Source: Arabidopsis thaliana (taxonomy: Eukaryota > Streptophyta > Magnoliopsida > Brassicales > Brassicaceae). From it: a stretch of DNA of 64,000 bases. A program made the position numbers and the translations under genes. Of this stretch, positions 15,006-31,335 are shown piece by piece. Position 1 is the first letter of the stretch; every line of letters begins with the position of its first letter. The notes beneath the pieces are model-generated. The model saw nothing but the letters and a program-made list of their open reading frames with translations, did no database searches and had not been told where the DNA came from. The stretch lies in NCBI RefSeq assembly GCF_000001735.4, contig NC_003074.8, positions 11,966,101-12,030,100 of the forward strand, in the 5' to 3' direction.

Positions 15006-16044
15006 AAGTGAAAAGATAACTTTTTATCATTTAAAATTCCGCCAAAAGCAAGATCCAATCTGTTGAGCGGTCATAGAGTACCTAGCAAATCCAATTTTAA
15101 TGCACTGAACTATGCATTGTTGCCTACGAAAGTTGAGTAACAGATTATAGGGAGATTTGTCGGTGAGACCTATATCCTAGGCTAATTTGTTTATTTGCCT
15201 TTCGTAGTTATGAACTAGAACGAAAATATAGAAACTTAAATAGATCTAAACCTTAGTTAGTCGAGAACCATGATACCCGGAGAAACCCTAAAACACCCAA
15301 CGCCTTAGTCTCATACTTTACAACTGATATCCATTCTGCTTTCATACCTTTACTTTGGTTTCATTCATAGTTTTCATTTTCTTTCATTGCATTAGTTATA
15401 GGAAACACAAAACCAAAACCTCCAAGTTTAGTTTTGTGTTAGATAGATCTTCTTCTCTGAATTCAATACTCTGTAGCTACACTCTATGTGGGATCAATCC
15501 TAAAATACTATTACTGATTACTGTGCACTTGCAGTTAAGGTGTGGTTTTTAGGTAAAATTTTTGAAGTAAAAACCATGACGCATCACTACACTTAACTCT
15601 ATATGGGATTTCTGGTTTTAAAATTGAAATAATTTGAAAATCATGTTCATCGCCATCTTCGTCTTTAGCTTTTGAAGCAGTCTTCTCAAGCAAACCTTTT
15701 CTTTTATCACCTGATTTATAGGCAATTCAAGTAAGGCGAATCATAGGTTCTTTTTGTTGAATAGTTATGCCATGGAACATAGCACACTCTGATTGTTTCT
15801 TTTTCTATATTGATTACTTGTTTTGGGATTGTTGCGTCTATCGCAAGTTCCTCATCAAATGCAAAATCATGTCATTCAGTTTTGTGTTATCCTCAAAAGA
15901 GACTCTAACATAGTAACATTGTTTGTTGAAACAAAGTGCAACCAATGCTTCTCTCTCCTCTGCGGTTGAATCTCACGTGCTGTTATTTTCTTAATCACAT
16001 TGACGCAGAAGTTCACCTCTTCGATGAAAATTTATACGTCGTGA
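15006..16044. other. Degraded sequence, possibly remnants of a MULE
   Basis: No intact gene. On the minus strand around 15890-16040 a block reads IFIEEVNFCVNVIKK and then REIQPQRREKHWL, with stops on either side. It might be the continuation of the 16760-16954 relic across the MITE. The plus-strand frame at 15355-15552 has no family features. Confidence 0.3.
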
Positions 16045-16793
16045 TTAGAGATGTTAATGATGGGTTAAAATCCACTGGGTACCCAAAACCCATATAAAAT
16101 TTTAAGCCCATAGATCTACTTTTTCTGAAAAAAAAATACATGTTTAAAATGGGCTGGGTGTCCAAATAAATAAAACTCATATGGGTTTATCTCATTGGGT
16201 TATGGGTACCCATGGGTTTTATTAAGTCCTTTTTCAAGTGAATCAACATTTCTCGTAAAAAACAAATTCACATTTTTTCGCCAAAACCGCGATTTAACAG
16301 TTTACCGCAAAAAAGACATTCAACATTTTCCCGCCAAAAAAGACATTCAACATTTTCCGCCAAAAACGACAATCAACATTTTTCCGCCAAAACGCAATTC
16401 AACATTTTCCCGCCAAAAACGACATTCAACATTTTCCCGCCAAAACGCAATTTAACATCTTCCCGTCAAATAACGCGATTCAAAATTTTCCGTCAACAAA
16501 TGATTTCACATTTTTCCGCCAAAAACGACATTCAACATTTTCTCGCCAAAAAGGATTTCACATTTTCCGGTCAAAAATGCAATTTAACATTTTCCCGCCA
16601 AAAATGATATTCAATATTTTTTCGCCAAAAACGCAATTTAACATTTTCCCATCAAATATATATGTAATACATAAAATAAATACAATTTAAAATATATTTA
16701 TGAGGGATTTTTCTGCCAAACACGACTTGTGATCTTCACAAATAGTAGATTGGATCCATCTATGAGGGATTTTTATTGGACATCTCTAAAACA
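16045..16793. mobile_element. hAT-like MITE with a second E2F-type array
   Basis: The ends read TAGAGATGTTAATG on the left and, inward from the right, TAGAGATGTCCAAT, resembling hAT ends in plants; I find no matching 8-bp target duplication. After the left end is a region of TGGGTTT/AACCCAT words. From 16255 to 16660 the unit ACATTTTCCCGCCAAAAACG (period about 25-27 bp) repeats roughly fifteen times with drift, and about four copies hold exact TTCCCGCCAA. The frame 16195-16455 is a by-product of the repeat. Confidence 0.5.
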
Positions 16794-16954
16794 ACGTCTT
16801 CGGCTCGTACTCCAAGCTTCTCTTTAACTTTACTTGCAAACTCTTTGTACATCATTGAATCTCGCAGGCAAACTAATCGATTTTCCTCCATAGTTTCAGA
16901 TTCTAAATTCCAAACCAACGGATCGACCTTCACCCATTCTCTTATAACGAGCAT
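16760..16954 (-). pseudogene. Possible MULE transposase N-terminal fragment
   Basis: A minus-strand frame of 64 residues contains LVIREWVKVDPLVW and, further on, YKEFASKVKEKLGV followed by VVLEMS. The spacing and the end-motif resemble the N-terminal (PB1-like) part of plant MuDR-type transposases. The frame stops where the MITE begins, and a possible continuation lies beyond the MITE at about 16040-15890. The resemblance is faint; a chance frame is not excluded. Confidence 0.25.
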
Positions 16955-17049
16955 AACATGCTCTTAAGCAGTCATTTATGCAGCGTTTACGGTTGGTAGG
17001 AGGAGAATCAATCAAGTCCTGATTTTTTGGTTATTTCAATAATAAACAC

Positions 17050-17525
17050 TAGGCCTGGGCAAAATACCCGAATCCAAAGAACTGAACTGAACCCGACCCG
17101 AAAAGCCCGATCCGAACCCGAACCCAAAATTTTAAAATATCCGAACGAATCCTAAACTTTAAAACCCAAAAACCCGAACCCAAATCTGATTGAACTTGAA
17201 CCTGATCAAGTACCCGAACATATCTAAAATATATATACATAGAAATAATTTAATAGTAACAATCATATTTACAACAACTTAATTGCCTAAATGTTTTTGG
17301 ATTTTAACCTATTTTGTATATTTTTGGGTAATTTAATTATTTTTGATTGATTCGGATAAAAAATACTCAAATTCTTTTAGAAGTTGTGTATTTTCAAGTA
17401 ATTTGAATATATTTTGATACAAAATTTTGAGTTTTGGATACTCCGGGTAAACCCGAATCCGAACCCAAAAAACTCGATCCCAACCAGACCCATACCTAAA
17501 GTCTTAAAATACCCGAACAGCTCTT
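17050..17525 (+). mobile_element. hAT-like non-autonomous element, right end missing
   Basis: Starts TAGGCCTGGGCAAAATACCC and is rich in ACCCGAA words at both ends. It aligns along its length to the copy at 28883-29460 (shared ATATATATACATAGAAATAA, then AATTTTGAGTTTTGGATACT) but stops about 85 bp before the expected right terminus. The gene array begins at the break. Its outer flank is ATAAACAC. Confidence 0.75.
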
Positions 17526-17571
17526 AAATTTTTTCTAGTCATGATAGTTGTATCTTTAACATAAATCTTAT

Positions 17572-17924
17572 AGCAAAACTATACTTTTTTTTTTTTTTTT
17601 TTTTTTTTTGATAAACCCTATCGGCTAATCCGGTCAACCCCGGTAGAAACGCACCGAAGTACTTCAGAGTGGACTTTTTCCCGAAGGACCACCACACTGT
17701 CTGTCCCGAGTTTGGATGCTTTCCGACTAATGCCAGGGGGTAGTCAGGCCGCCTGCATTTCTGACTACCAGGTAAATCAATTGGGCCAAAGCCCAACTGA
17801 CAGACTTCCCAAACAAATGTGATTTTTGTTTCCAGGAGCATCGAACCCAGGTCTGAAAGTTTCACCCTTCCCCAAATCTTCTCCTACCACTGGACCACAG
17901 ATGCTTGGACAGCAAAACTATACT
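17572..17924 (-). mobile_element. tRNA-derived SINE with 14-bp TSD
   Basis: The 325-bp insert 17586-17910 is bounded by the direct repeat AGCAAAACTATACT (17572-17585 and 17911-17924). Read on the minus strand it opens with an A-box-like TGGTCCAGTGGTAGGAG and a B-box-like GGTTCGATGC, and it ends in a run of A. This is the layout of a tRNA-derived Brassicaceae SINE transcribed by RNA polymerase III. The other five units keep the empty site with one copy of the 14-mer. Confidence 0.9.
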
Positions 17925-18439
17925 TGATATTCTAAATTTATCAATTTGCTCTTGTGAACCTCATATTAGCCTAGAGAAACTTTGAAATTCTTTCAAGAAG
18001 TTCTATGTAGAATACAGTTTTAGTAACATTTATTAGCCATTTCGATTAAGATTATTGTTAGCAAAAAGTTTTTTTTTTTATATATATAAGAAAAACTATG
18101 TTTTAGATACAATGTGAGTTAGGCTTCTTAAATTTTAAAAGTTAAATACATTTATACTTAAAAATAGTTAGAAATTCAAATTTATACATAAATATGTCAA
18201 TTTGAACCTTATACCCATTAAATATTTGGTGTTAGATATCAAAATAAAAGAAAATTAACCATTTGTTACTTATATTGAATTGGATATTGTTACATGTATT
18301 TATGTTTTTTTTTGTTTAATTTTGAAACGTTGATAAAAACCATTAAATTTAAGTTTTGTACTATATTTATTTGTCGAAAATATAATTGTCATTAAATATA
18401 ACGTTAACTTTATTTTTAAAATACGTTGTTATTTTTATT

Positions 18440-18470
18440 TCGTATATAGAGGTAAGGTAACTTCATTTTT
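18440..18470 (+). promoter_or_regulatory. Conserved TATA region and GTAACTT motif before the first array gene
   Basis: A TATA-like TATATAGAGG sits about 105-110 bp before the start codon; other copies have TTTATAAAGG or CTATATAAAGG. GTAACTT follows at 18457-18463 and is kept in all six units. It fits the published MYB98 binding word GTAACNT of synergid-expressed genes, but a 7-bp match so close to the TATA box is weak evidence. Confidence 0.4.
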
Positions 18471-18554
18471 TAAATAACAAATACAAATCATTCTTTATTA
18501 CGATTTGTTTAGTTAAACAAAAATATTTCTTGTATATTTCAATCATAAGTAGAT

Positions 18555-18902
18555 ATGTCTAAATTTAACTCTCAGATTACTATGCTATTCATTGTTTTAG
18601 CTTTGGTGTGTGCGTTTGTTCCGGCTTTCTCAATCGAAGAAGCGGAAGCAAATTTATTATGGAAAACTTGTCTTGTTAAAATTACTCCTAAGTGTGCGTT
18701 GGATATAATCGCTGCTGTCTTTGAAAATGGAACAATGCATGATCCTTGTTACAACGATCTCGTCAAAGAAGGAAAAGTGTGTCACGATACGCTTATTAAA
18801 TATATTGCTGATAAACCCATGTTAATTGCCCACGAAACTGAATACTTGAAGAAAAGTGATGACTTATGGAAACATTGTGTCTCAATATCCAAAAGTGCTT
18901 GA
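18555..18902 (+). CDS. Small secreted Cys-rich protein, ECA1/prolamin-like, copy 1
   Basis: Intronless, 115 aa. Residues 1-26 form a signal peptide ending VPAFS. The mature part carries a helical Cys-rich domain. The consensus of the array has six cysteines at 39, 47, 65, 66, 76 and 108 (C-x7-C-x17-CC-x9-C-x31-C), fitting the plant ECA1/prolamin-like secreted proteins expressed mainly in female gametophytes. In this copy position 66 is Tyr and position 62 is His, so one cysteine of the CC pair is gone and one disulphide may be lost. A polyadenylation-like AATAAA lies about 30 bp after the stop. Expression and role are family inferences. Confidence 0.8.
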   Translation: MSKFNSQITMLFIVLALVCAFVPAFSIEEAEANLLWKTCLVKITPKCALDIIAAVFENGTMHDPCYNDLVKEGKVCHDTLIKYIADKPMLIAHETEYLKKSDDLWKHCVSISKSA

Positions 18903-20416
18903 AATATGTAATATTTTTTACTGTTTTGATCAATAAATTGGTATTTTCTGTTATTGAAGTTTTCTTCACTCAAACATTTATATTTTCACTTTACTACAAT
19001 TTCAATCAAAGCGAATTTCGTTCTAAAAAAATGTAACATAAATTTATGATTTTCTATTATCACTTAAAACAAAGTTTCTTATGAATAGCGAAATAATAAT
19101 AATTCAATATTTAATTATTAAGAGGCGCTCTAAACATTATTTTTAGAGAATTGTTTTTTTGTATTTTCTTTTTAATGAGATTAATATCTTTTTCATAATT
19201 TAACGAAGTTTAACTTTTTTCAAAGCATTTGGAGAACTTATTTCTTTAAATTCCGGAAAAAAAGAATTTAAAATCTTTATCATTATTCTATAATTCAGTG
19301 ACCTTAGCCAAAAACCTCAAACAAATAAGCAAATCATTTTCAAGCAGATTTACAAATTTTAAATTTGAATTTCAATGCACAAAACGAAAAACTTGATGGA
19401 TGAGACAAGTTTGAATATAATATCTATTAAACACTATAATTTTATAAATTTAGCAAAAATTATATTTCCTAATGGATCTGTTAGTTCATACGTATCTTAA
19501 TTAGTGTCAAATCATATCTAATGATTAGTGATCAAACTAGTTTGATATCTTTAAGTGTCTTTTACCTTTTATTAATTGAATTTAACTTGAATCCTTCTTC
19601 TTTTTTTTTATATACAAACAACTTTAATCCTTCGTTAAAGTATAAATTTAAAATATTTTGCTTTGATTCTAGTTATCGGTTTATATTTACTAAGTTTTAG
19701 TTCATGTGCAATTTCAAATGATATGCTTTTAAATTTTTTCTAGTCATGATAGTTATATGTTTAACATAAATCTTATAGCAAAACTATATTTGATATTCTA
19801 AATTTATCAATTTGCTCTTGTGAACCTCATATTAGCCTAGAGAAACTTTAAAATCCTTTCAAGAAGTTCTATGTCGAATACAATTTTACTAACATTTATT
19901 AGCCATTTCGATTAAGATTATTGTTACCAAAAAGTTTTGTTTTTTTTAATAAAAAAACTATGTTTTAGATACAATGTGAGTTAGGCTTCTTAAATTTTAA
20001 AAGTTAAATACATTTATACTTCAAAATAGTTGGAAATTCAAATTTATACATAAATATGTCAATTTGAACCTTATACCCATTAAATATTTGGTGTTAGATA
20101 TCAAAATAAAAGAAAATTAACCATTTGTTACTTATATTAAATTGGATATTGTTACATGTATTTATGTTTTTTTTGGTTTAATTTTGAAACGTTGATAGAA
20201 ACCATTAAATTTAAGTTTTGTAATATATTTATTTGTCAAAAATATAATTGTCATTAAATATAACGTTAACTTTATTTTTAAAATACGTTGTTATTTTTAT
20301 TTCCTTTATAAAGGTAAGGTAACTTCATTTTTTAAATAACAAATATAAATCATTCTTTACTACGATTTGTTTAGTAAAACAAGAATATTTCTTGTATATT
20401 TCAATCATAAGTAGAT

Positions 20417-20766
20417 ATGTCTAAATTTAACTCTCAGATTACTATGCTATTCATTGTTTTAGCTTTGGTGTGTGCGTTTGTTCCGGCTTTCTCAGTCGAA
20501 GAAGCAGAAGCAAATTTTTATTATGGAAAACTTGTCTTGTTAAAATTACTCCTAAATGTGCGTTGGATATAATCGCTGCTGTCTTTGAAAATGGAACAAT
20601 GCCTGATCCTTGTTGCAACGATCTCGTCAACGAAGGAAAAGTGTGTCACGATACGCTTATTAAATATATTGCTGATAAACCCATGTTAATTGCCCACGAA
20701 ACTGAATACTTGAAGAAGAGTGATAACTTGTGGAAACATTGTGTCTCAATATCCGAAAGTGCTTGA
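20417..20766 (+). pseudogene. ECA1/prolamin-like copy 2, frameshifted
   Basis: The copy is two bases longer than its sisters because a run of three T after GAAGCAAA has become five (about 20514-20518, near codon 33). The frame shifts just after the signal peptide, so the mature domain is not made from the normal start. The rest is well kept, including all six cysteine codons, so the break is recent. An internal frame from 20470 joins the shifted leader to the domain but loses the signal peptide. Confidence 0.85.
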
Positions 20767-22280
20767 AATATGTAATATTTTTTAATGTTTTGATCAATAA
20801 ATTGGTATTTTCTGTTATTGAAGTTTTCTTCACTCAAACATTTATATTTTCACTTTACTACAATTTCAATCAAAGCGAATTTCGTTCTAAAAAAATATAA
20901 CATAAATTTATGATTTTCTATTTTCACTTAAAACAAAGTTTCTTATGAATAGCGAAATAATAATAATTCAATATTTAATTATTAAGAGGCGCTCTAAACA
21001 TTATTTTTAGAGAATTGTTTTTTTGTATTTTCTTGTTAATGAGATTAATATGTTTTTCATAATTCAACGAAGTTTAACTTTTTTCAAAGCATTTGGAGAA
21101 CTTATTTCTTTAAATTCCGGAAAAAAAGAATTTAAAATCTTTATCATTATTCTATAATTTAGTAACCTTAGCCAAAAACCTCAAACAAATAAGCAAATCA
21201 TTTTCAAGCAGATTTACAAATTTTAAATTTGAATTTCAATGCACAAAACGAAAAACTTGATGGATGAGAGAAGTTTGAATATAATATCTATTAAATACTA
21301 TAATTTTATAAATTTAGCAAAAATTATATTTTCTAATGGATCTGTTAATTCATACGTATCTTAATTAGTGTCAAATCATATCTAATGATTAGTGATCAAA
21401 CTAGTTTGATATCTATAAGTGTCATTTACCATTTATTAATTGAATTTAACTTGAATCCTTCTTTTTTTTTTATATACAAACAACTTTAATCCTTCGTTAA
21501 AGTATAAATTTAAAATATTTTGCTTTGATTCTAGTTATCGGTTTATATTTACTAAGTTTTAGTTCATGTGCAATTTTAAATGATATGCTTTTAAATTTTT
21601 TCTAGTCATGATAGTTATATCTTTAACATAAATCTTATAGCAAAACTATACTTGATATTCTAAATTTATCAATTTGCTCTTGTGAACCTCATATTAGCCT
21701 AGAGAAACTTTAAAATCCTTTCAAGAAGTTCTATGTCGAATACAGTTTTACTAACATTTATTAGCCATTTCGATTAAGATTATTGTTACCAAAAAGTTTT
21801 TTTTTTTCTTAATAAAAAAACTATGTTTTAGATACAATGTGAGTTAGTCTTCTTAAATTTTAAAAGTTAAATACATTTATACTTAAAAATAGTTGAAAAT
21901 TCAAATTTATACATAAATATGTCAATTTGAACCTTATACCCATTAAATATTTGGTGTTAGATATCAAAATAAAAGAAAATTAACCATTTGTTACTTATAT
22001 TAAATTGGATATTGTTACATGTATTTATCTTTTTTTTTGTTTAATTTTGAAACGTTGATAGAAACCATTAAATTTAAGTTTTGTGCTATATTTATTTGTC
22101 GAAAATATAATTGTCATTAAATATAACGTTAACTTTATTCTTAAAATACGTTGTTATTTTTATTTCCTTTATAAAGGTAAGGTAACTTCATTTTTTAAAT
22201 AACAAACTACAAATCATTCTTTATTACGATTTGTTTAGTAAAACAAGAATATTTCTTGTATATTTCAATCATAAGTAGAT

Positions 22281-22628
22281 ATGTCTAAATTTAACTCTCA
22301 GATTACTATGCTATTCATTGTTTTAGCTTTGGTGTGTGCGTTTGTTCCGGCTTTCTCAGCCGAAGAAGCGGAAGCAAATTTATTATGGAAAACTTGTCTT
22401 GTTAAAATTACTCCTAAGTGTGCGTTAGATATAATCGCTGCTGTCTTTGAAAATGGAACAATGCCTGATCCTTGTTGCAACGATCTCGTCAAAGAAGGAA
22501 AAGTGTGTCACGATACGCTTATTAAATATATTGCTGATAAACCCATGTTAATTGCCCACGAAACTGAATACTTGAAGAAGAGTGATGACTTGTGGAAACA
22601 TTGTTTCTCAATATCCGAAAGTGCTTGA
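22281..22628 (+). CDS. ECA1/prolamin-like secreted protein, copy 3
   Basis: Intact 115-aa frame with signal peptide (1-26, then AEEAEAN) and all six cysteines (39, 47, 65, 66, 76, 108). The protein is identical to copy 5 at 26005. Compared with copy 1 it has Pro62, Cys66 and Phe109. It belongs to the 3.72-kb duplicated pair of units, so a functional product could come from either or both copies. Confidence 0.85.
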   Translation: MSKFNSQITMLFIVLALVCAFVPAFSAEEAEANLLWKTCLVKITPKCALDIIAAVFENGTMPDPCCNDLVKEGKVCHDTLIKYIADKPMLIAHETEYLKKSDDLWKHCFSISESA

Positions 22629-24140
22629 AATATGTAATATTTTTTAATGTTTTGATCAATAAATTGGTATTTTCTGTTATTGAAGTTTTCTTCACTCAAA
22701 CATTTATATTTTCACTTTACTACAATTTCAATCAAAGCGAATTTTGTTCTAAAAAAATATAACATAAATTTATGATTTTCTATTTTCACTTAAAACAAAG
22801 TTTCTTATGAATAGTGAAATAATAATAATTCAATATTTAATTATTAAGAGGCGCTCTAAACATTATTTTTAGAGAATTGTTTTTTTGTATTTTCTTTTTA
22901 ATGAGATTAATATGTTTTTCATAATTCAACGAAGTTTAACTTTTTTCAAAGCATTTGGAGAACTTATTTCTTAAAATTCCGGAAAAAAAGAATTTAAAGT
23001 CTTTCTCATTATTATATAATTCAGTGACCTTAGCCAAAAACCTCAAACAAATAAGCAAATCATTTTTAAGCAGATTTACAAATTTTAAATTTGAATTTCA
23101 ATGCACAAAACGAAAAACTTGATGGATGAGAGAAGTTTGAATATAATATCTATTAAATACTATAATTTTATAAATTTAGCAAAAATTATATTTTTTTAAT
23201 GGATCTGTTAGTTCATACGTATCTTAATTAGTGTCAAATCATATCAAATGATTAGTGATCAAACTAGTTTGATATCTATAAGTGTCTTTTATCATTTATT
23301 AATTGAATTTAACTTGAATCCTTCTTTTTTTTTTATATACAAACAACTTTAATCCTTCGTTAAAGTATAAATTTAAAATAGTTTGCTTTGATTCTAGTTA
23401 TCGGTTTATATTTACTAAGTTTTGGTTCATGTGCAATTTCAAATGATATGCTTTTAAATTTTTTCTAGTCATGATAGTTATATCTTTAACATAAATCTTA
23501 TAGCAAAACTATACTTGATATTCTAAATTTATCAATTTGCTCTTGTGAACCTCATATTAGCCTAGAGAAACTTTGAAATCCTTTCAAGAAGTTCTATGTC
23601 GAATACTGTTTTACTAACATTTATTAGCCACTTCGATTAAGATTATTGTTAGCAAAAAGTTTTTTTTTTTTTTATAGAAAAAACTATGTTTTAGATACAA
23701 TGTGAGTTAGGCTCCTTAAATTTTAAAAGTTAAATACATTTATACTTAAAAATAGTTGGAAATTCAAATTTATACATAAATATGTCAATTTGAACCTTAT
23801 ACCCATTAAATATTTGGTGTTAGATATCAAAATAAAAGAAAATTAACCATTTGTTACTTATATTGAATTGGATATTGTTACATGTATTTATGTTTTTTTT
23901 TTTAATTTTGAAACTTTGATAGAAACCATTAAATTTAAGTTTTGTACTATATTTATTTGTCGAAAATATAATTGTCATTAAATATAACATTAACTTTATT
24001 CTTAAGTTACGTTGTTATTTTGATTTCCTATATAAAGGTAAGGTAACTTCATTTTTTAAATAACAAATACAAATCATTCTTTATTACGATTTGTTTAGTA
24101 AAACAAGAATATTTCTTGTATATTTCAATCATAAGTAGAT

Positions 24141-24488
24141 ATGTCTAAATTTAACTCTCAGATTACTATGCTATTCATTGTTTTAGCTTTGGTGTGTGCG
24201 TTTGTTCCGGCTTTCTAAGTCGAAGAAGCGGAAGCAAATTTACTATGGAAAACTTGTCTTGTTAAAATTACTCCTAAGTGTGCGTTGGATATAATCGCTG
24301 CTGTCTTTGAAAATGAAACAATGCCTGATCCTTGTTGCAACGATCTCGTCAAAGAAGGAAAAGTGTGTCACGATACGCTTATTAAATATATTGCAAATAA
24401 ACCCATGTTAATTGCCCAGGAAACTGAATACTTGAAGAAGAGTGATGACTTGTGGACACATTGTATCTCAATATCCAAAAGTGCTTGA
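24141..24488 (+). pseudogene. ECA1/prolamin-like copy 4, early stop
   Basis: Codon 26, the last of the signal peptide, is TAA (24216-24218) where the intact copies have TCA. The downstream frame is otherwise open and keeps the six cysteines, with changes such as Asp86Asn, His93Gln and Lys106Thr. Translation would stop after the secretion signal. The nonsense change is shared with copy 6. Confidence 0.9.
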
Positions 24489-26004
24489 AATATGTAATGT
24501 TTTTTTACTGTTTTGATCAATAAATTGTTATTTTCTGTTATTGAAGTTTTCTTCACTCAAACATTTATATTTTCACTTTACTACAATTTCAACCAAAGCG
24601 AATTTAGTTCTCAAAAAATATAACATAAATTTATGATTTTCTATTTTCACTTAAAACAAAGTTTCTTATGAATAGCGAAATAATAATAATTCAATATTTA
24701 ATTATTAAGAGGCGCTCTAAACATTATTTTTAGAGAATTATTTTTTTGTATTTTCTTTTTTAATTAGATTAATATGTTTTTCAAAATTCAACGAAGTTTA
24801 ACTTTTTTTCAAAGCATTTAGAGAAATTAAATGTTGGAAATTTTTTATTTAAAATCTGATTTATTTATCATTATTCTATAATTCAATGACCTTAGACCAA
24901 AACCTGACACAAATAAGCAAAACATTTTCAAGCAGATTTACAAATTTTGAATTTGAATTTCAATGCAAAAAACGAAAAGCTTGATGGATGAGACAAATTT
25001 GAATATAATATCTATTAAATCCTCTAATTTTATAAATTTAGCAAAAATTATATTTTCTAATGGATCTGTTAATTCATACGTATCTTAATTAGTGTCAAAT
25101 CATATCTAATGATTAGTGATCAAACTAGTTTGATATCTATAAGTGTCATTTACCATTTATTAATTGAATTTAACTTGAATCCTTCTTTTTTTTTTATATA
25201 CAAACAACTTTAATCCTTCGTTAAAGTATAAATTTAAAATATTTTGCTTTGATTCTAGTTATCGGTTTATATTTACTAAGTTTTAGTTCATGTGCAATTT
25301 TAAATGATATGCTTTTAAATTTTTTCTAGTCATGATAGTTATATCTTTAACATAAATCTTATAGCAAAACTATACTTGATATTCTAAATTTATCAATTTG
25401 CTCTTGTGAACCTCATATTAGCCTAGAGAAACTTTAAAATCCTTTCAAGAAGTTCTATGTCGAATACAGTTTTACTAACATTTATTAGCCATTTCGATTA
25501 AGATTATTGTTACCAAAAAGTTTTTTTTTTTCTTAATAAAAAAACTATGTTTTAGATACAATGTGAGTTAGTCTTCTTAAATTTTAAAAGTTAAATACAT
25601 TTATACTTAAAAATAGTTGAAAATTCAAATTTATACATAAATATGTCAATTTGAACCTTATACCCATTAAATATTTGGTGTTAGATATCAAAATAAAAGA
25701 AAATTAACCATTTGTTACTTATATTAAATTGGATATTGTTACATGTATTTATCTTTTTTTTTGTTTAATTTTGAAACGTTGATAGAAACCATTAAATTTA
25801 AGTTTTGTGCTATATTTATTTGTCGAAAATATAATTGTCATTAAATATAACGTTAACTTTATTCTTAAAATACGTTGTTATTTTTATTTCCTTTATAAAG
25901 GTAAGGTAACTTCATTTTTTAAATAACAAACTACAAATCATTCTTTATTACGATTTGTTTAGTAAAACAAGAATATTTCTTGTATATTTCAATCATAAGT
26001 AGAT

Positions 26005-26352
26005 ATGTCTAAATTTAACTCTCAGATTACTATGCTATTCATTGTTTTAGCTTTGGTGTGTGCGTTTGTTCCGGCTTTCTCAGCCGAAGAAGCGGAAGCA
26101 AATTTATTATGGAAAACTTGTCTTGTTAAAATTACTCCTAAGTGTGCGTTAGATATAATCGCTGCTGTCTTTGAAAATGGAACAATGCCTGATCCTTGTT
26201 GCAACGATCTCGTCAAAGAAGGAAAAGTGTGTCACGATACGCTTATTAAATATATTGCTGATAAACCCATGTTAATTGCCCACGAAACTGAATACTTGAA
26301 GAAGAGTGATGACTTGTGGAAACATTGTTTCTCAATATCCGAAAGTGCTTGA
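26005..26352 (+). CDS. ECA1/prolamin-like secreted protein, copy 5
   Basis: Intact 115-aa frame identical in protein to copy 3, with signal peptide and six cysteines. It lies in the second member of the 3.72-kb duplication. Flanks including the TATA region and GTAACTT word match those of copy 3. Confidence 0.85.
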   Translation: MSKFNSQITMLFIVLALVCAFVPAFSAEEAEANLLWKTCLVKITPKCALDIIAAVFENGTMPDPCCNDLVKEGKVCHDTLIKYIADKPMLIAHETEYLKKSDDLWKHCFSISESA

Positions 26353-27863
26353 AATATGTAATATTTTTTAATGTTTTGATCAATAAATTGGTATTTTCTG
26401 TTATTGAAGTTTTCTTCACTCAAACATTTATATTTTCACTTTACTACAATTTCAATCAAAGCGAATTTTGTTCTAAAAAAATATAACATAAATTTATGAT
26501 TTTCTATTTTCACTTAAAACAAAGTTTCTTATGAATAGTGAAATAATAATAATTCAATATTTAATTATTAAGAGGCGCTCTAAACATTATTTTTAGAGAA
26601 TTGTTTTTTTGTATTTTCTTTTTAATGAGATTAATATGTTTTTCATAATTCAACGAAGTTTAACTTTTTTCAAAGCATTTGGAGAACTTATTTCTTAAAA
26701 TTCCGGAAAAAAAGAATTTAAAGTCTTTCTCATTATTATATAATTCAGTGACCTTAGCCAAAAACCTCAAACAAATAAGCAAATCATTTTTAAGCAGATT
26801 TACAAATTTTAAATTTGAATTTCAATGCACAAAACGAAAAACTTGATGGATGAGAGAAGTTTGAATATAATATCTATTAAATACTATAATTTTATAAATT
26901 TAGCAAAAATTATATTTTTTTAATGGATCTGTTAGTTCATACGTATCTTAATTAGTGTCAAATCATATCAAATGATTAGTGATCAAACTAGTTTGATATC
27001 TATAAGTGTCTTTTATCATTTATTAATTGAATTTAACTTGAATCCTTCTTTTTTTTTTATATACAAACAACTTTAATCCTTCGTTAAAGTATAAATTTAA
27101 AATAGTTTGCTTTGATTCTAGTTATCGGTTTATATTTACTAAGTTTTGGTTCATGTGCAATTTCAAATGATATGCTTTTAAATTTTTTCTAGTCATGATA
27201 GTTATATCTTTAACATAAATCTTATAGCAAAACTATACTTGATATTCTAAATTTATCAATTTGCTCTTGTGAACCTCATATTAGCCTAGAGAAACTTTGA
27301 AATCCTTTCAAGAAGTTCTATGTCGAATACTGTTTTACTAACATTTATTAGCCACTTCGATTAAGATTATTGTTAGCAAAAAGTTTTTTTTTTTTTATAG
27401 AAAAAACTATGTTTTAGATACAATGTGAGTTAGGCTCCTTAAATTTTAAAAGTTAAATACATTTATACTTAAAAATAGTTGGAAATTCAAATTTATACAT
27501 AAATATGTCAATTTGAACCTTATACCCATTAAATATTTGGTGTTAGATATCAAAATAAAAGAAAATTAACCATTTGTTACTTATATTGAATTGGATATTG
27601 TTACATGTATTTATGTTTTTTTTTTTAATTTTGAAACTTTGATAGAAACCATTAAATTTAAGTTTTGTACTATATTTATTTGTCGAAAATATAATTGTCA
27701 TTAAATATAACATTAACTTTATTCTTAAGTTACGTTGTTATTTTGATTTCCTATATAAAGGTAAGGTAACTTCATTTTTTAAATAACAAATACAAATCAT
27801 TCTTTATTACGATTTGTTTAGTAAAACAAGAATATTTCTTGTATATTTCAATCATAAGTAGAT

Positions 27864-28211
27864 ATGTCTAAATTTAACTCTCAGATTACTATGCTATTCA
27901 TTGTTTTAGCTTTGGTGTGTGCGTTTGTTCCGGCTTTCTAAGTCGAAGAAGCGGAAGCAAATTTACTATGGAAAACTTGTCTTGTTAAAATTACTCCTAA
28001 GTGTGCGTTGGATATAATCGCTGCTGTCTTTGAAAATGAAACAATGCCTGATCCTTGTTGCAACGATCTCGTCAAAGAAGGAAAAGTGTGTCACGATACG
28101 CTTATTAAATATATTGCAAATAAACCCATGTTAATTGCCCAGGAAACTGAATACTTGAAGAAGAGTGATGACTTGTGGACACATTGTATCTCAATATCCA
28201 AAAGTGCTTGA
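27864..28211 (+). pseudogene. ECA1/prolamin-like copy 6, early stop
   Basis: Carries the same TAA at codon 26 (27939-27941) and the same amino-acid changes as copy 4, so it descends from the duplication of an already broken copy. The rest of the frame is open. Confidence 0.9.
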
Positions 28212-28882
28212 AATATGTAATGTTTTTTTACTGTTTTGATCAATAAATTGTTATTTTCTGTTATTGAAGTTTTCTTCACTCAAACATTTATATTTTCACT
28301 TTACTACAATTTCAACCAAAGCGAATTTAGTTCTCAAAAAATATAACATAAATTTATGATTTTCTATTTTCACTTAAAACAAAGTTTCTTATGAATAGCG
28401 AAATAATAATAATTCAATATTTAATTATTAAGAGGCGCTCTAAACATTATTTTTAGAGAATTATTTTTTTGTATTTTCTTTTTTAATTAGATTAATATGT
28501 TTTTCAAAATTCAACGAAGTTTAACTTTTTTTCAAAGCATTTAGAGAAATTAAATGTTGGAAATTTTTTATTTAAAATCTGATTTATTTATCATTATTCT
28601 ATAATTCAATGACCTTAGACCAAAACCTGACACAAATAAGCAAAACATTTTCAAGCAGATTTACAAATTTTGAATTTGAATTTCAATGCAAAAAACGAAA
28701 AGCTTGATGGATGAGACAAATTTGAATATAATATCTATTAAATCCTCTAATTTTATAAATTTAGCAAAAATTATATTTTCTAATGGATCTGTTAGTTCAC
28801 ACGTATCTTGATTAGTATCAAATCATATCTAATGATTAGTGAGAATACTAGTTGGATATCTATATGTGTCTTTACAATTTAA

Positions 28883-29460
28883 TAGGCATGGGCAAAATAC
28901 CTGAACCCGAAGAACCGAACTGAACCCAACTAGAAAACCCAATCCGAACCCGAATCCAAAATTTTAAAATACCCGAACGGATTCTTAACTTCAAATGCCG
29001 AAAACCCGAACCCGAACCGGATCCCAACCAAAATTCGATCAAGTACCTGAACATATCTGAAATATATATACATAGAAATAATTTAATAGTAACAATCCTA
29101 TTTACAATTTTTTTTTTTTGAACAAAGGCTCATATTTACAACTTAAGTGCCTAAATGTTTTAGATTTTAAGATATTTAGTATATTTTTGGGTACTTTACT
29201 TATTTTTCAATAGATTCAGATAGATAATAATCAGATTTTTAGAAGTTTTTGTGTATTTTCAATAATTTGAATATATTTTGATACAAAATTTTGAGTTTTG
29301 GATACTCCGGGTAAACCTGAATCCAAACCCAAAAAAAAACTCGATCCCAACCTGACCCGTAGTTTAAAAGTACCGAACGGATCTTAGATTTCTAAATCCA
29401 AAAAGCGAAACCCGAAAAACCAATCCGAACCCGATCCGAATATCCAAACATCCAGGCCTA
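28883..29460 (+). mobile_element. hAT-like non-autonomous element, full copy at the right of the array
   Basis: 578 bp from TAGGCATGGGCAAAATACC to CATCCAGGCCTA, with ACCCGAA-rich ends. It aligns to 17050-17525 with visible divergence, roughly 10-15% by eye, plus a short T-rich insert near 29108-29135. It has no coding capacity. ATAAACAC follows immediately at 29461-29468; the inner side lacks that octamer. Confidence 0.8.
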
Positions 29461-29468
29461 ATAAACAC

Positions 29469-31335
29469 GAATAATTTCGTCAAATTCCACACTAAACCAC
29501 ATACAACTATCATCATTGAGATCTTAAATTTCCCTTGTTTAGTTTTATGCTTGTAATCTTTCCTAACCTTTGATATTTAATTGAACATACATGAATATCT
29601 CTTAAAAGTAATATTCATATATAAATAAATTGAACTATCATCTTGTTTATGTAGTATTTTAATTTATGATCAATCAAGAAATATATATATAATTAGTTGC
29701 AGAACATTAGAAGTAATCAAAAGACAACTTAATTTATTATTTTATTTCAAAATAATATGTGGACATGAAAGCTGATAAGAACGAACTCCTAAGTAATTAT
29801 GGCCACGCACCTCTGATTATAAATATAGTAATAAGGCTGGATGATAATTAATCATCTACTATATCACTATATAATTACCAAGTTTTGGCTCTAAGTGGGA
29901 ATCAAAGCGTCAAATCTTAATCAATATTTTATTAAATTATGTAAAGTACTAATTCGATTAATCATCACGAGTCACCCTCATGGCCGTAATTTAATCGTAT
30001 ATCCAGTCAGATATATATTGACAGTAAGGCAAATCAGAGCCATGTATTAATATATTAAAAAAGTATTAATGTGTAGGTCTTGAGTTGCATTGCATCATGT
30101 ATTAACATTTCAGAGCAACATATTTACTTGAACGGGTTTCCACATCCACAATTTTAAATGTAAATTCGACTATTCAAAAGTATTATTAACAAATAATTTA
30201 AAAATGGTTGTGTTTTTCTTTATTTCCATGAAAGTTTTTTTTTTTATTATCATTATTAACAAATAATTTGTACTTATTATAAGATCTAAAACCAAATACA
30301 AGAGCAAATGGAAATTCATGCCATCTATGTAAACATGTAATAACAAGAAACAAATTTGAGTGATTTTAGTAAAGAACGTAACATATTTTTTTCAGGTCGA
30401 AGACATGTGAAGTATTCTGAAGCCAAAAGAAAAATTCACAAGTAAAATAATGTGGTTATTATCTTGGTCATTTTGTTTTCACATTTTTTTTGTTCTCCTC
30501 GTCATTAAAGTCGAAGACACACCTTTATTTTGGGCAATTCTTACTAGTATTCACACTTTTCATTGCACATTTGCACTACAATTTACTTTTTAACAAAAAT
30601 AAAATGTTTTGATAAGATTAAAATATGGCACTTTACTTTTTCTTTAATTTTTTTGGGACAACAAGTGAAAAAAAAAGAAGAGGGAGATGAAATCTTGATA
30701 TTTCAGTTTTAAACTAATATTATTTATTAAAAAGTTAATTATATGTAACTGAAATTCCGAATTTTTCAAACACATTGTCTTTCATCGTATCATTAAGCAC
30801 ATACTTCATACCCTCATAATCAGAGAAAAATACAAACATATTATATCACCAAAATGGATTTTAGTGCATGTATTTGAGTATATATAGCCTAGTCAAGTTT
30901 ATACGCTTAGCCTAGTCAAGTTTACACGCTTAATTATTAAATCCGACTGATTGGATTGTTTCTTCTTCTCCTTCCTTGTTCATGTTATATAACAGTAGAC
31001 TCAAAGGGTGATCCGAAAGCTGAGAAGGTAAAGAGATAGGTAAATTAATTATAAGCACTCTTTTGACTATTTGCTTTAAAATGACATATATATAACCATT
31101 TTCATCCTCCCTCTCTTATATTTCAGACTCAAATACAAAAGTTCGTTGCAGAAATTCTGAAAATAAGGGGATCCAAAACCTACCCCTCATAGTTTTTTTT
31201 GTTTGTTTGAACTATACGTCTCTCAACTATAATAATATAATAATAATACTTTGTTGTTTGAGTTGAAAAACTCTCTTCAACAGAGACTATATCGTCATAT
31301 CTTTTTGTTTGTAAACCATCAAACCTTAAATCTTA
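29469..31335. other. Intergenic DNA, no gene seen
   Basis: AT-rich, with only short open frames. A 21-bp word (CTTAGCCTAGTCAAGTTTA and nearby) is doubled near 30885-30930. No transposon ends or gene family recognised. Confidence 0.55.

Follow-up and report, generated by a model that had tools for sequence, protein, structure and literature searches.

Plant chromosomes carry dispersed tandem families of small secreted peptides, and the means by which these families move are debated. Among the systems that bear on this question are the Ac/Ds macrotransposons, reportedly described by Huang and Dooner in 2008, in which two copies of one transposon family lie in direct orientation and the outer ends carry matching 8-bp octamers. 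Here we analyze a comparable locus in Arabidopsis thaliana. It lies in a 64-kb window of chromosome 3 (C3:11966101-12030100; the window is the whole stretch of DNA analyzed, and positions without a prefix are counted from its first letter) and comprises an array of six tandem units, with genes for predicted small secreted peptides, placed between a truncated left copy (hAT-L) and a complete right copy (hAT-R) of a non-autonomous hAT-type element. As in the Ac/Ds pairs, the two copies belong to the same family, are direct, and have outer ends flanked by one target duplication. Unlike those pairs, the locus does not hold two complete elements, as hAT-L is without its right end and one inner end is therefore missing, and the composite is known from sequence alone, as a single copy.

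Other described systems share parts of this anatomy. Pack-TIR and Pack-TYPE elements, in the portions of PMC8277862 and PMC8903248 that describe them, enclose non-transposon DNA within terminal-inverted-repeat (TIR) ends and a target duplication, occur as single copies, and show microhomology at internal breakpoints. The chromosome 3 composite likewise holds non-transposon cargo with homologues elsewhere, inside TIR ends and a target duplication, but it differs in the cargo, a full tandem array in which three genes are open, in having two element copies, and in growth by crossover. For A. thaliana, part of PMC8903248 reports that no new Pack superfamily was detected with the TIRs used. Maize composite insertions made by reversed transposon ends, as outlined in PMC4270019, combine 8-bp duplications, a truncated element, a microhomology join, and flanking DNA that was carried in; an 8-bp duplication, a truncated element, and a microhomology join are all present here. 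Transposed A. thaliana genes treated in part of PMC2869330 include tandem-family genes flanked by direct repeats, for which insertion of a circle is proposed, although the repeats there are mostly genic and those here are copies of a transposon, with a target duplication at the outer ends. Fourteen 'ECA1 gametogenesis related' genes with flanking repeats are listed there. Finally, the CRP3600/DUF1278 genes of SAT5 repeats are, like those studied here, small cysteine-rich peptide genes within tandem monomers of ~2 kb, whereas the genes here match PF05617 and represent another subgroup and another repeat, and the relevant part of PMC3422182 describes no transposon-bounded insertion for SAT5. The composite is real and clean; its parts are ordinary, while the size and integrity of its cargo are unusual.

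The octamer ATAAACAC lies directly outside the TAGGCCTGGGC end of hAT-L at 17050 and directly outside the CATCCAGGCCTA end of hAT-R at 29460. These two unstranded copies (17042-17049 and 29461-29468), recovered by octamer search and in the sequence itself, are presumed to be a target-site duplication. As a word ATAAACAC is common, with five occurrences in the window against a mean of 4.44 in shuffles, and its evidential weight therefore comes from its position. Two random window octamers would be identical with a probability of 8.3e-5, or 1.1e-3 if both are restricted to nTnnnnAn, the target preference of hAT elements. Among 12 octamers compared (10 independent ones from the family, ATAAACAC, and the inner octamer CAATTTAA described below), T occupied position 2 in 9 and A position 7 in 7, and the best match among the 66 pairs was 6 of 8 positions. 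The exact match at the element ends, the low probability of chance, and a family that duplicates 8 bp of its target together give us high confidence that 17050-29460 (12,411 bp) is one insertion event or a nested set, bounded by hAT outer ends and a real target duplication. This agrees with an earlier note on this DNA, which had placed the octamer exactly outside both elements and had argued from it for a single composite insertion rather than two independent ones.

The genome searched for related sites was one A. thaliana assembly (119.7 Mb in 7 contigs), and no paralogous empty site was found in it. The right 800-bp flank had 1 match, itself only, and the left 390-bp flank had eight, namely itself and seven repeats of 40-45 bp. 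The 5-kb stretches on either side of the composite showed no similarity to each other, and the joined flanks had 0 matches among viral contigs, a comparison that is uninformative. The earlier note had proposed a search for other blocks with the same ends and cargo; in this genome no second was found.

hAT-L (17050-17520, plus strand), delimited in an alignment of hAT-L, hAT-R, and 13 family copies, is the 5' (left) part of an element. Its homology stops at ~17520-17530, the final ~75 bp, right terminal repeat included, are absent, and an array unit follows directly. The join (17520-17531) falls mid-unit and passes through a microhomology of ~9 bp, TCTTAAATT at 17522-17530. hAT-R (28883-29460, plus strand) is a complete 578-bp element by family alignment, with ends TAGGCATGGGC and CATCCAGGCCTA. 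On its inner side stands CAATTTAA (28875-28882), presumably the left half of the target-site duplication made when hAT-R itself entered an array unit; the right partner is absent beyond hAT-R, and the unit does not continue there. Since aligned units on chromosome 5 read ACC-ATTTAACTT at the matching position, hAT-R seems to have inserted in the usual way into an array unit of which the remainder is now missing. The earlier note was thus correct about the common orientation and the different inner octamer, and its six-gene array between two hAT copies stood as to the six units, but the left element is incomplete and only three units have open frames. Within hAT-R, an insert of ~31 bp at 29107-29137 consists of poly-T followed by GAACAAAGGCT between short ATTTACA repeats and resembles a truncated retroelement end.

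Assignment to a hAT-type family draws on 40 copies fetched from lists of at least 63 and at least 62 matches. Terminal inverted repeats of the TAGGCCTGGGC / GCCCAGGCCTA type are found in family copies, and short ends of this kind are typical of hAT elements. Octamers with at most one mismatch adjoin terminal-repeat-like ends in 19 of the 40 copies (20 with the doubtful L060), in a test that ranked end pairs by octamer match and so involves some selection; a clear pair is lacking in the other 21, L060 among them. These matches represent 10 independent octamers, as nine copies share ATAATTAA and two share ATTGCAAC. The nine (L080-L088) have ATAATTAA on both sides of each, so this hAT probably travelled as a passenger of another repeat. 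The two (L051 and L054, at C2:1898109 and C2:1905610) lie 7.5 kb apart, and their common octamer and near-identical flanks indicate a segmental duplication and not a composite. The genome contains 112 matches to Dimer_Tnp_hAT, the nearest of which to any of 47 family places is 11 kb away; for C2:9643444, which was outside that comparison, the nearest is ~1 Mb off. No autonomous partner emerged from these matches.

The identity between hAT-L and hAT-R is 0.828, ranking 40th of 77 family pairs with a median of 0.829 (partial copies L058 and L062 excluded). Judged by alignment, they are ordinary independent family members and did not arise by recent local duplication. They alone share five derived sites, the second highest number among the listed pairs, behind a segmental duplicate, which hints at most at a common subfamily. 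Their similarity is patchy, being the highest of the pairs in 176-225 and 361-440 and the lowest in 101-175. Terminal branches measure 0.08-0.37 in 11 of the 13 aligned family copies, and the other two form a duplicated pair.

The six units between the elements, all on the plus strand, are 1.86 kb long and 94-100% alike: u1 (17520-19722), u2 (19723-21584), u3 (21585-23447), u4 (23448-25308), u5 (25309-27171), and u6 (27172-28882). Units u3 and u5 are identical, with 0 differences over 1863 bp, and u4 is a hybrid, agreeing with u6 at 84 ungapped informative sites to 25024 and with u2 at 11 sites from 25072; one gapped column departs. A single unequal crossover of u6 with u2 in an array ordered u1-u2-u3-u6 would exactly fit an increase from four units to six, and the hybrid and the unit order point to an earlier block of ~8.7 kb with four units. 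On these comparisons the six-unit state is recent, and the near-identical u3-u6 stretch may hold an assembly error. The view that six genes moved is therefore unlikely as it stands, the array having had four units and reached six later, whether before or after the move.

The two edges of the array differ in divergence. The ~410 bp of u6 that adjoin hAT-R show 51 differences from u1 among 409 compared sites, whereas the rest of the unit shows 46 among 1299. At the left edge, u1 differs over its first 300 bp from u2 at 17 of 295 sites, from u3 at 15 of 296, and from u6 at 13 of 295, and further in u1 and u2 differ at 40 of 1565. The right edge of the array thus seems old and long beyond homogenization and the left edge younger, and from this asymmetry the right junction appears older than the left. 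The edges are ~140 bp apart in unit phase (q1815 versus q1675), u1 beginning mid-unit downstream of the phase of hAT-R, a coincidence of 7-8% if phases are random. Local duplication of the hAT by unequal crossing over within the array, which would explain both the orientation and the near-equal phase, was rejected on the median similarity of the two copies, despite their five private derived sites.

Related arrays were sought with the array unit and with the 411-bp edge of u6. The unit search gave an incomplete list, in which the chromosome 3 units appeared as a 50-bp piece only and a chromosome 5 block at 13.20 Mb was missing; the edge search picked up that block, and all 16 of its 16 candidates were scored. 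Chromosome 5 arrays at 13.20, 13.22, 17.02, and 17.23 Mb are 76-82% identical to the u6 edge and 80-87% to pieces of the whole unit, with up to 0.90 for partial chromosome 5 units. No closer donor array was found in the genome by the incomplete unit list or among the 16 scored edge candidates, and the latter included no array of this type on chromosome 3 besides that of the window. Three of the chromosome 5 array regions contain no hAT of this family. At the fourth, a hAT piece (C5:13189049-13189354) lies 6 kb to the left and is not adjacent; at 71.5% identity to hAT-R and 73.7% to hAT-L, it is by sequence a distant relative. Direct repeats between flanks were absent from the four arrays looked at, three on chromosome 5 and one at 17.13 Mb on chromosome 1. 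The chromosome 5 array near 13.2 Mb was partly read, with C5:13197300-13203499 and 13209000-13215999 outside the scan. The pericentromeric relatives in C5:13195300-13225300 form at least two blocks with a period of ~1.95 kb, more than the unit search listed.

Collectively, we favor an origin of the composite by repair or recombination at a resident hAT-type element, a reading preferred because it needs the fewest extra steps and held near an even chance by the missing donor and the lack of a chimera signal. A resident element on chromosome 3, with ATAAACAC on either side, would have been broken near 86% of its length. Its right stump would have recombined with, or copied from, a second copy, hAT-R, inside a tandem DUF784/prolamin-like array, so that the 5' part of hAT-R and a stretch of array came in, and the far end would have been joined to the left stump by short microhomology. 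In a variant, a circle with array and hAT would integrate by homology and a deletion of ~220 bp would follow. What resulted would be a single composite with the outer ends of hAT elements, flanked by the old target duplication of the resident; at some point one unequal crossover would take the array from four units to six, and a repeat resembling a short interspersed nuclear element (SINE) would land in u1. We lean to this origin on the truncated hAT-L with its mid-unit microhomology join, the younger left edge, the finding of one composite only, and the median hAT similarity. The outer octamers that match at exact element ends, and the circle insertion proposed in PMC2869330 for transposed genes with flanking direct repeats, also speak for it. 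Among single-copy gap-filled elements of animals, part of PMC8277862 reports that in 190 cases (67.6%) at least one of the two breakpoints showed microhomology and, for primates, a cargo-free resident element in outgroups for 91 of 97; the internal end of hAT-L and the mid-unit TCTTAAATT join are the kind of breakpoint described there, which argues for repair at a resident hAT.

Several observations weigh against this origin. A chimera test on hAT-R gave no usable signal, as its heterogeneity p of 0.004 was undercut in 5 of 65 other pairs (at fewer simulations). The five derived sites private to hAT-L and hAT-R are unexpected for a resident and an unrelated donor. Copying would need a surviving donor array, and the nearest is 82% identical to the u6 edge; in the copying form the phase gap of ~140 bp is also an unexplained coincidence. 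Strand invasion is inefficient between copies 16-17% apart. The mostly genic repeats of PMC2869330, in the part concerned, are a further difference from a transposon-based event. Plain filler capture is itself disfavored, as filler DNA at rice transposon excisions is given as 1-123 bp in part of PMC4423477, far shorter than the cargo here.

The earlier note had offered macrotransposition beside recombination into a resident hAT, and the evidence leans to the latter, which fits slightly better than movement by the outer ends. In a macrotransposition, a donor array would have lain between two direct hAT copies, and transposase acting on the two outer ends, left for hAT-L and right for hAT-R, would have moved the whole block and made the ATAAACAC pair, the inner right end of hAT-L being deleted before or after. 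We judge this unlikely, although the outer octamers and the orientation fit, the five private sites suit two copies of one subfamily, cut-and-paste would account for the absence of a close donor array, and Ac macrotransposons are cited in part of PMC4270019. With the inner right end of hAT-L lost, hAT-R would also provide the sole right end and the block would act as one large element. However, two suitably oriented hAT insertions next to a single array and a separate deletion are needed, hAT-L and hAT-R are not recent local duplicates, no second composite was found in the genome, all aligned family copies but the duplicated pair sit on terminal branches of 0.08-0.37, and no hAT transposase domain lies within 11 kb of the 47 family places compared. 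A left junction later than the right is merely allowed by macrotransposition, whereas it is required by resident-element repair and by transposition of reversed ends with re-replication. In that last process the right end of hAT-R and the left end of hAT-L, facing each other at the donor, would be joined into the target, hAT-R with array flank and part of hAT-L would be copied, and both forks would break and be sealed by a microhomology join. The whole anatomy would then follow from a single event, and in the maize composite insertions treated in part of PMC4270019 the target duplications are 8 bp long, one insertion has a truncated Ds, and the joins fall at microhomologies of 4 bp and 9 bp. 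The maize donors are in cis, though, and here neither a cis donor nor a linked duplication is seen, as the 16 scored candidates include no other chromosome 3 match to the u6 edge and the 5-kb flanks are dissimilar; we consider it improbable.

A chance match would leave the array native, or arrived otherwise, with two independent hAT insertions whose outer octamers happen to agree. The octamer is indeed AT-rich and common, and the outer match stands without an empty site to back it. Yet the probability of a chance match is low in each comparison, and extra deletions would be needed for the absent right CAATTTAA and unit continuation and for the absent right end of hAT-L, one of them ending exactly at the terminus of hAT-R, so we regard chance as highly improbable. 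The transposase-driven readings taken together are credible but fall short of an even chance. It is rather doubtful that the locus is a natural plant macrotransposon dispersing functional gene clusters, in which a complete tandem array of genes for secreted reproductive-type peptides was carried by hAT transposase from one chromosome to another as a single composite and went on growing by unequal crossing over. The locus has sharply defined ends, a target duplication that is still intact, a single microhomology junction, and a readable array history, so that the orthologous position in relatives could tell gene movement by transposase from movement by repair.

The array units carry a gene of 115 aa that is open in u1 (18555-18902), u3 (22281-22628), and u5 (26005-26352). 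In u2 the frame is broken and a 98-aa remnant remains (20470-20766), and u4 (24141-24488) and u6 (27864-28211) have a common stop at codon 26. The protein matches PF05617 (prolamin-like) with E-values of 8.9e-12 for u1, 1.4e-14 for u3, and 2.2e-14 for the u2 remnant, a chromosome 5 relative carries the name DUF784, and the N-terminus is hydrophobic by inspection. The array genes thus look like predicted small secreted prolamin-like/DUF784 peptides. A tree of 19 proteins (15 of 66 listed relatives, u1, and three from chromosome 5) placed the chromosome 3 and chromosome 5 arrays, two unnamed sequences, and another A. thaliana sequence in a clade of nine with support of 100/97. Four proteins fall outside it, three of them from A. 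lyrata and the fourth belonging to an A. thaliana x A. arenosa record, suggesting that the array probably reached chromosome 3 after the A. thaliana lineage had separated; concerted evolution could, however, give the same pattern. AT3G30387 (DUF784), a guessed locus name here, is the best match of a tomato gene in part of PMC5500324. Among the titles and abstract openings listed in literature searches none pointed to this locus, and an Rfam scan of 16001-31000 yielded 0 matches.

Unit u1 also contains a dispersed repeat (17587-17910, minus strand) flanked by AGCAAAACTATACTT at 17572-17586 and 17911-17925. It has 41 matches among scored candidates including itself, the others with up to 96% identity, and is absent from u2-u6; we take it to be SINE-like from such features as poly-T on the plus strand. 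To the left of the composite lies a minisatellite with a unit of 26-27 bp (16215-16704), and a 45-bp piece immediately to its right (16660-16704) has counterparts, full-length or 40 bp long, at seven further places.

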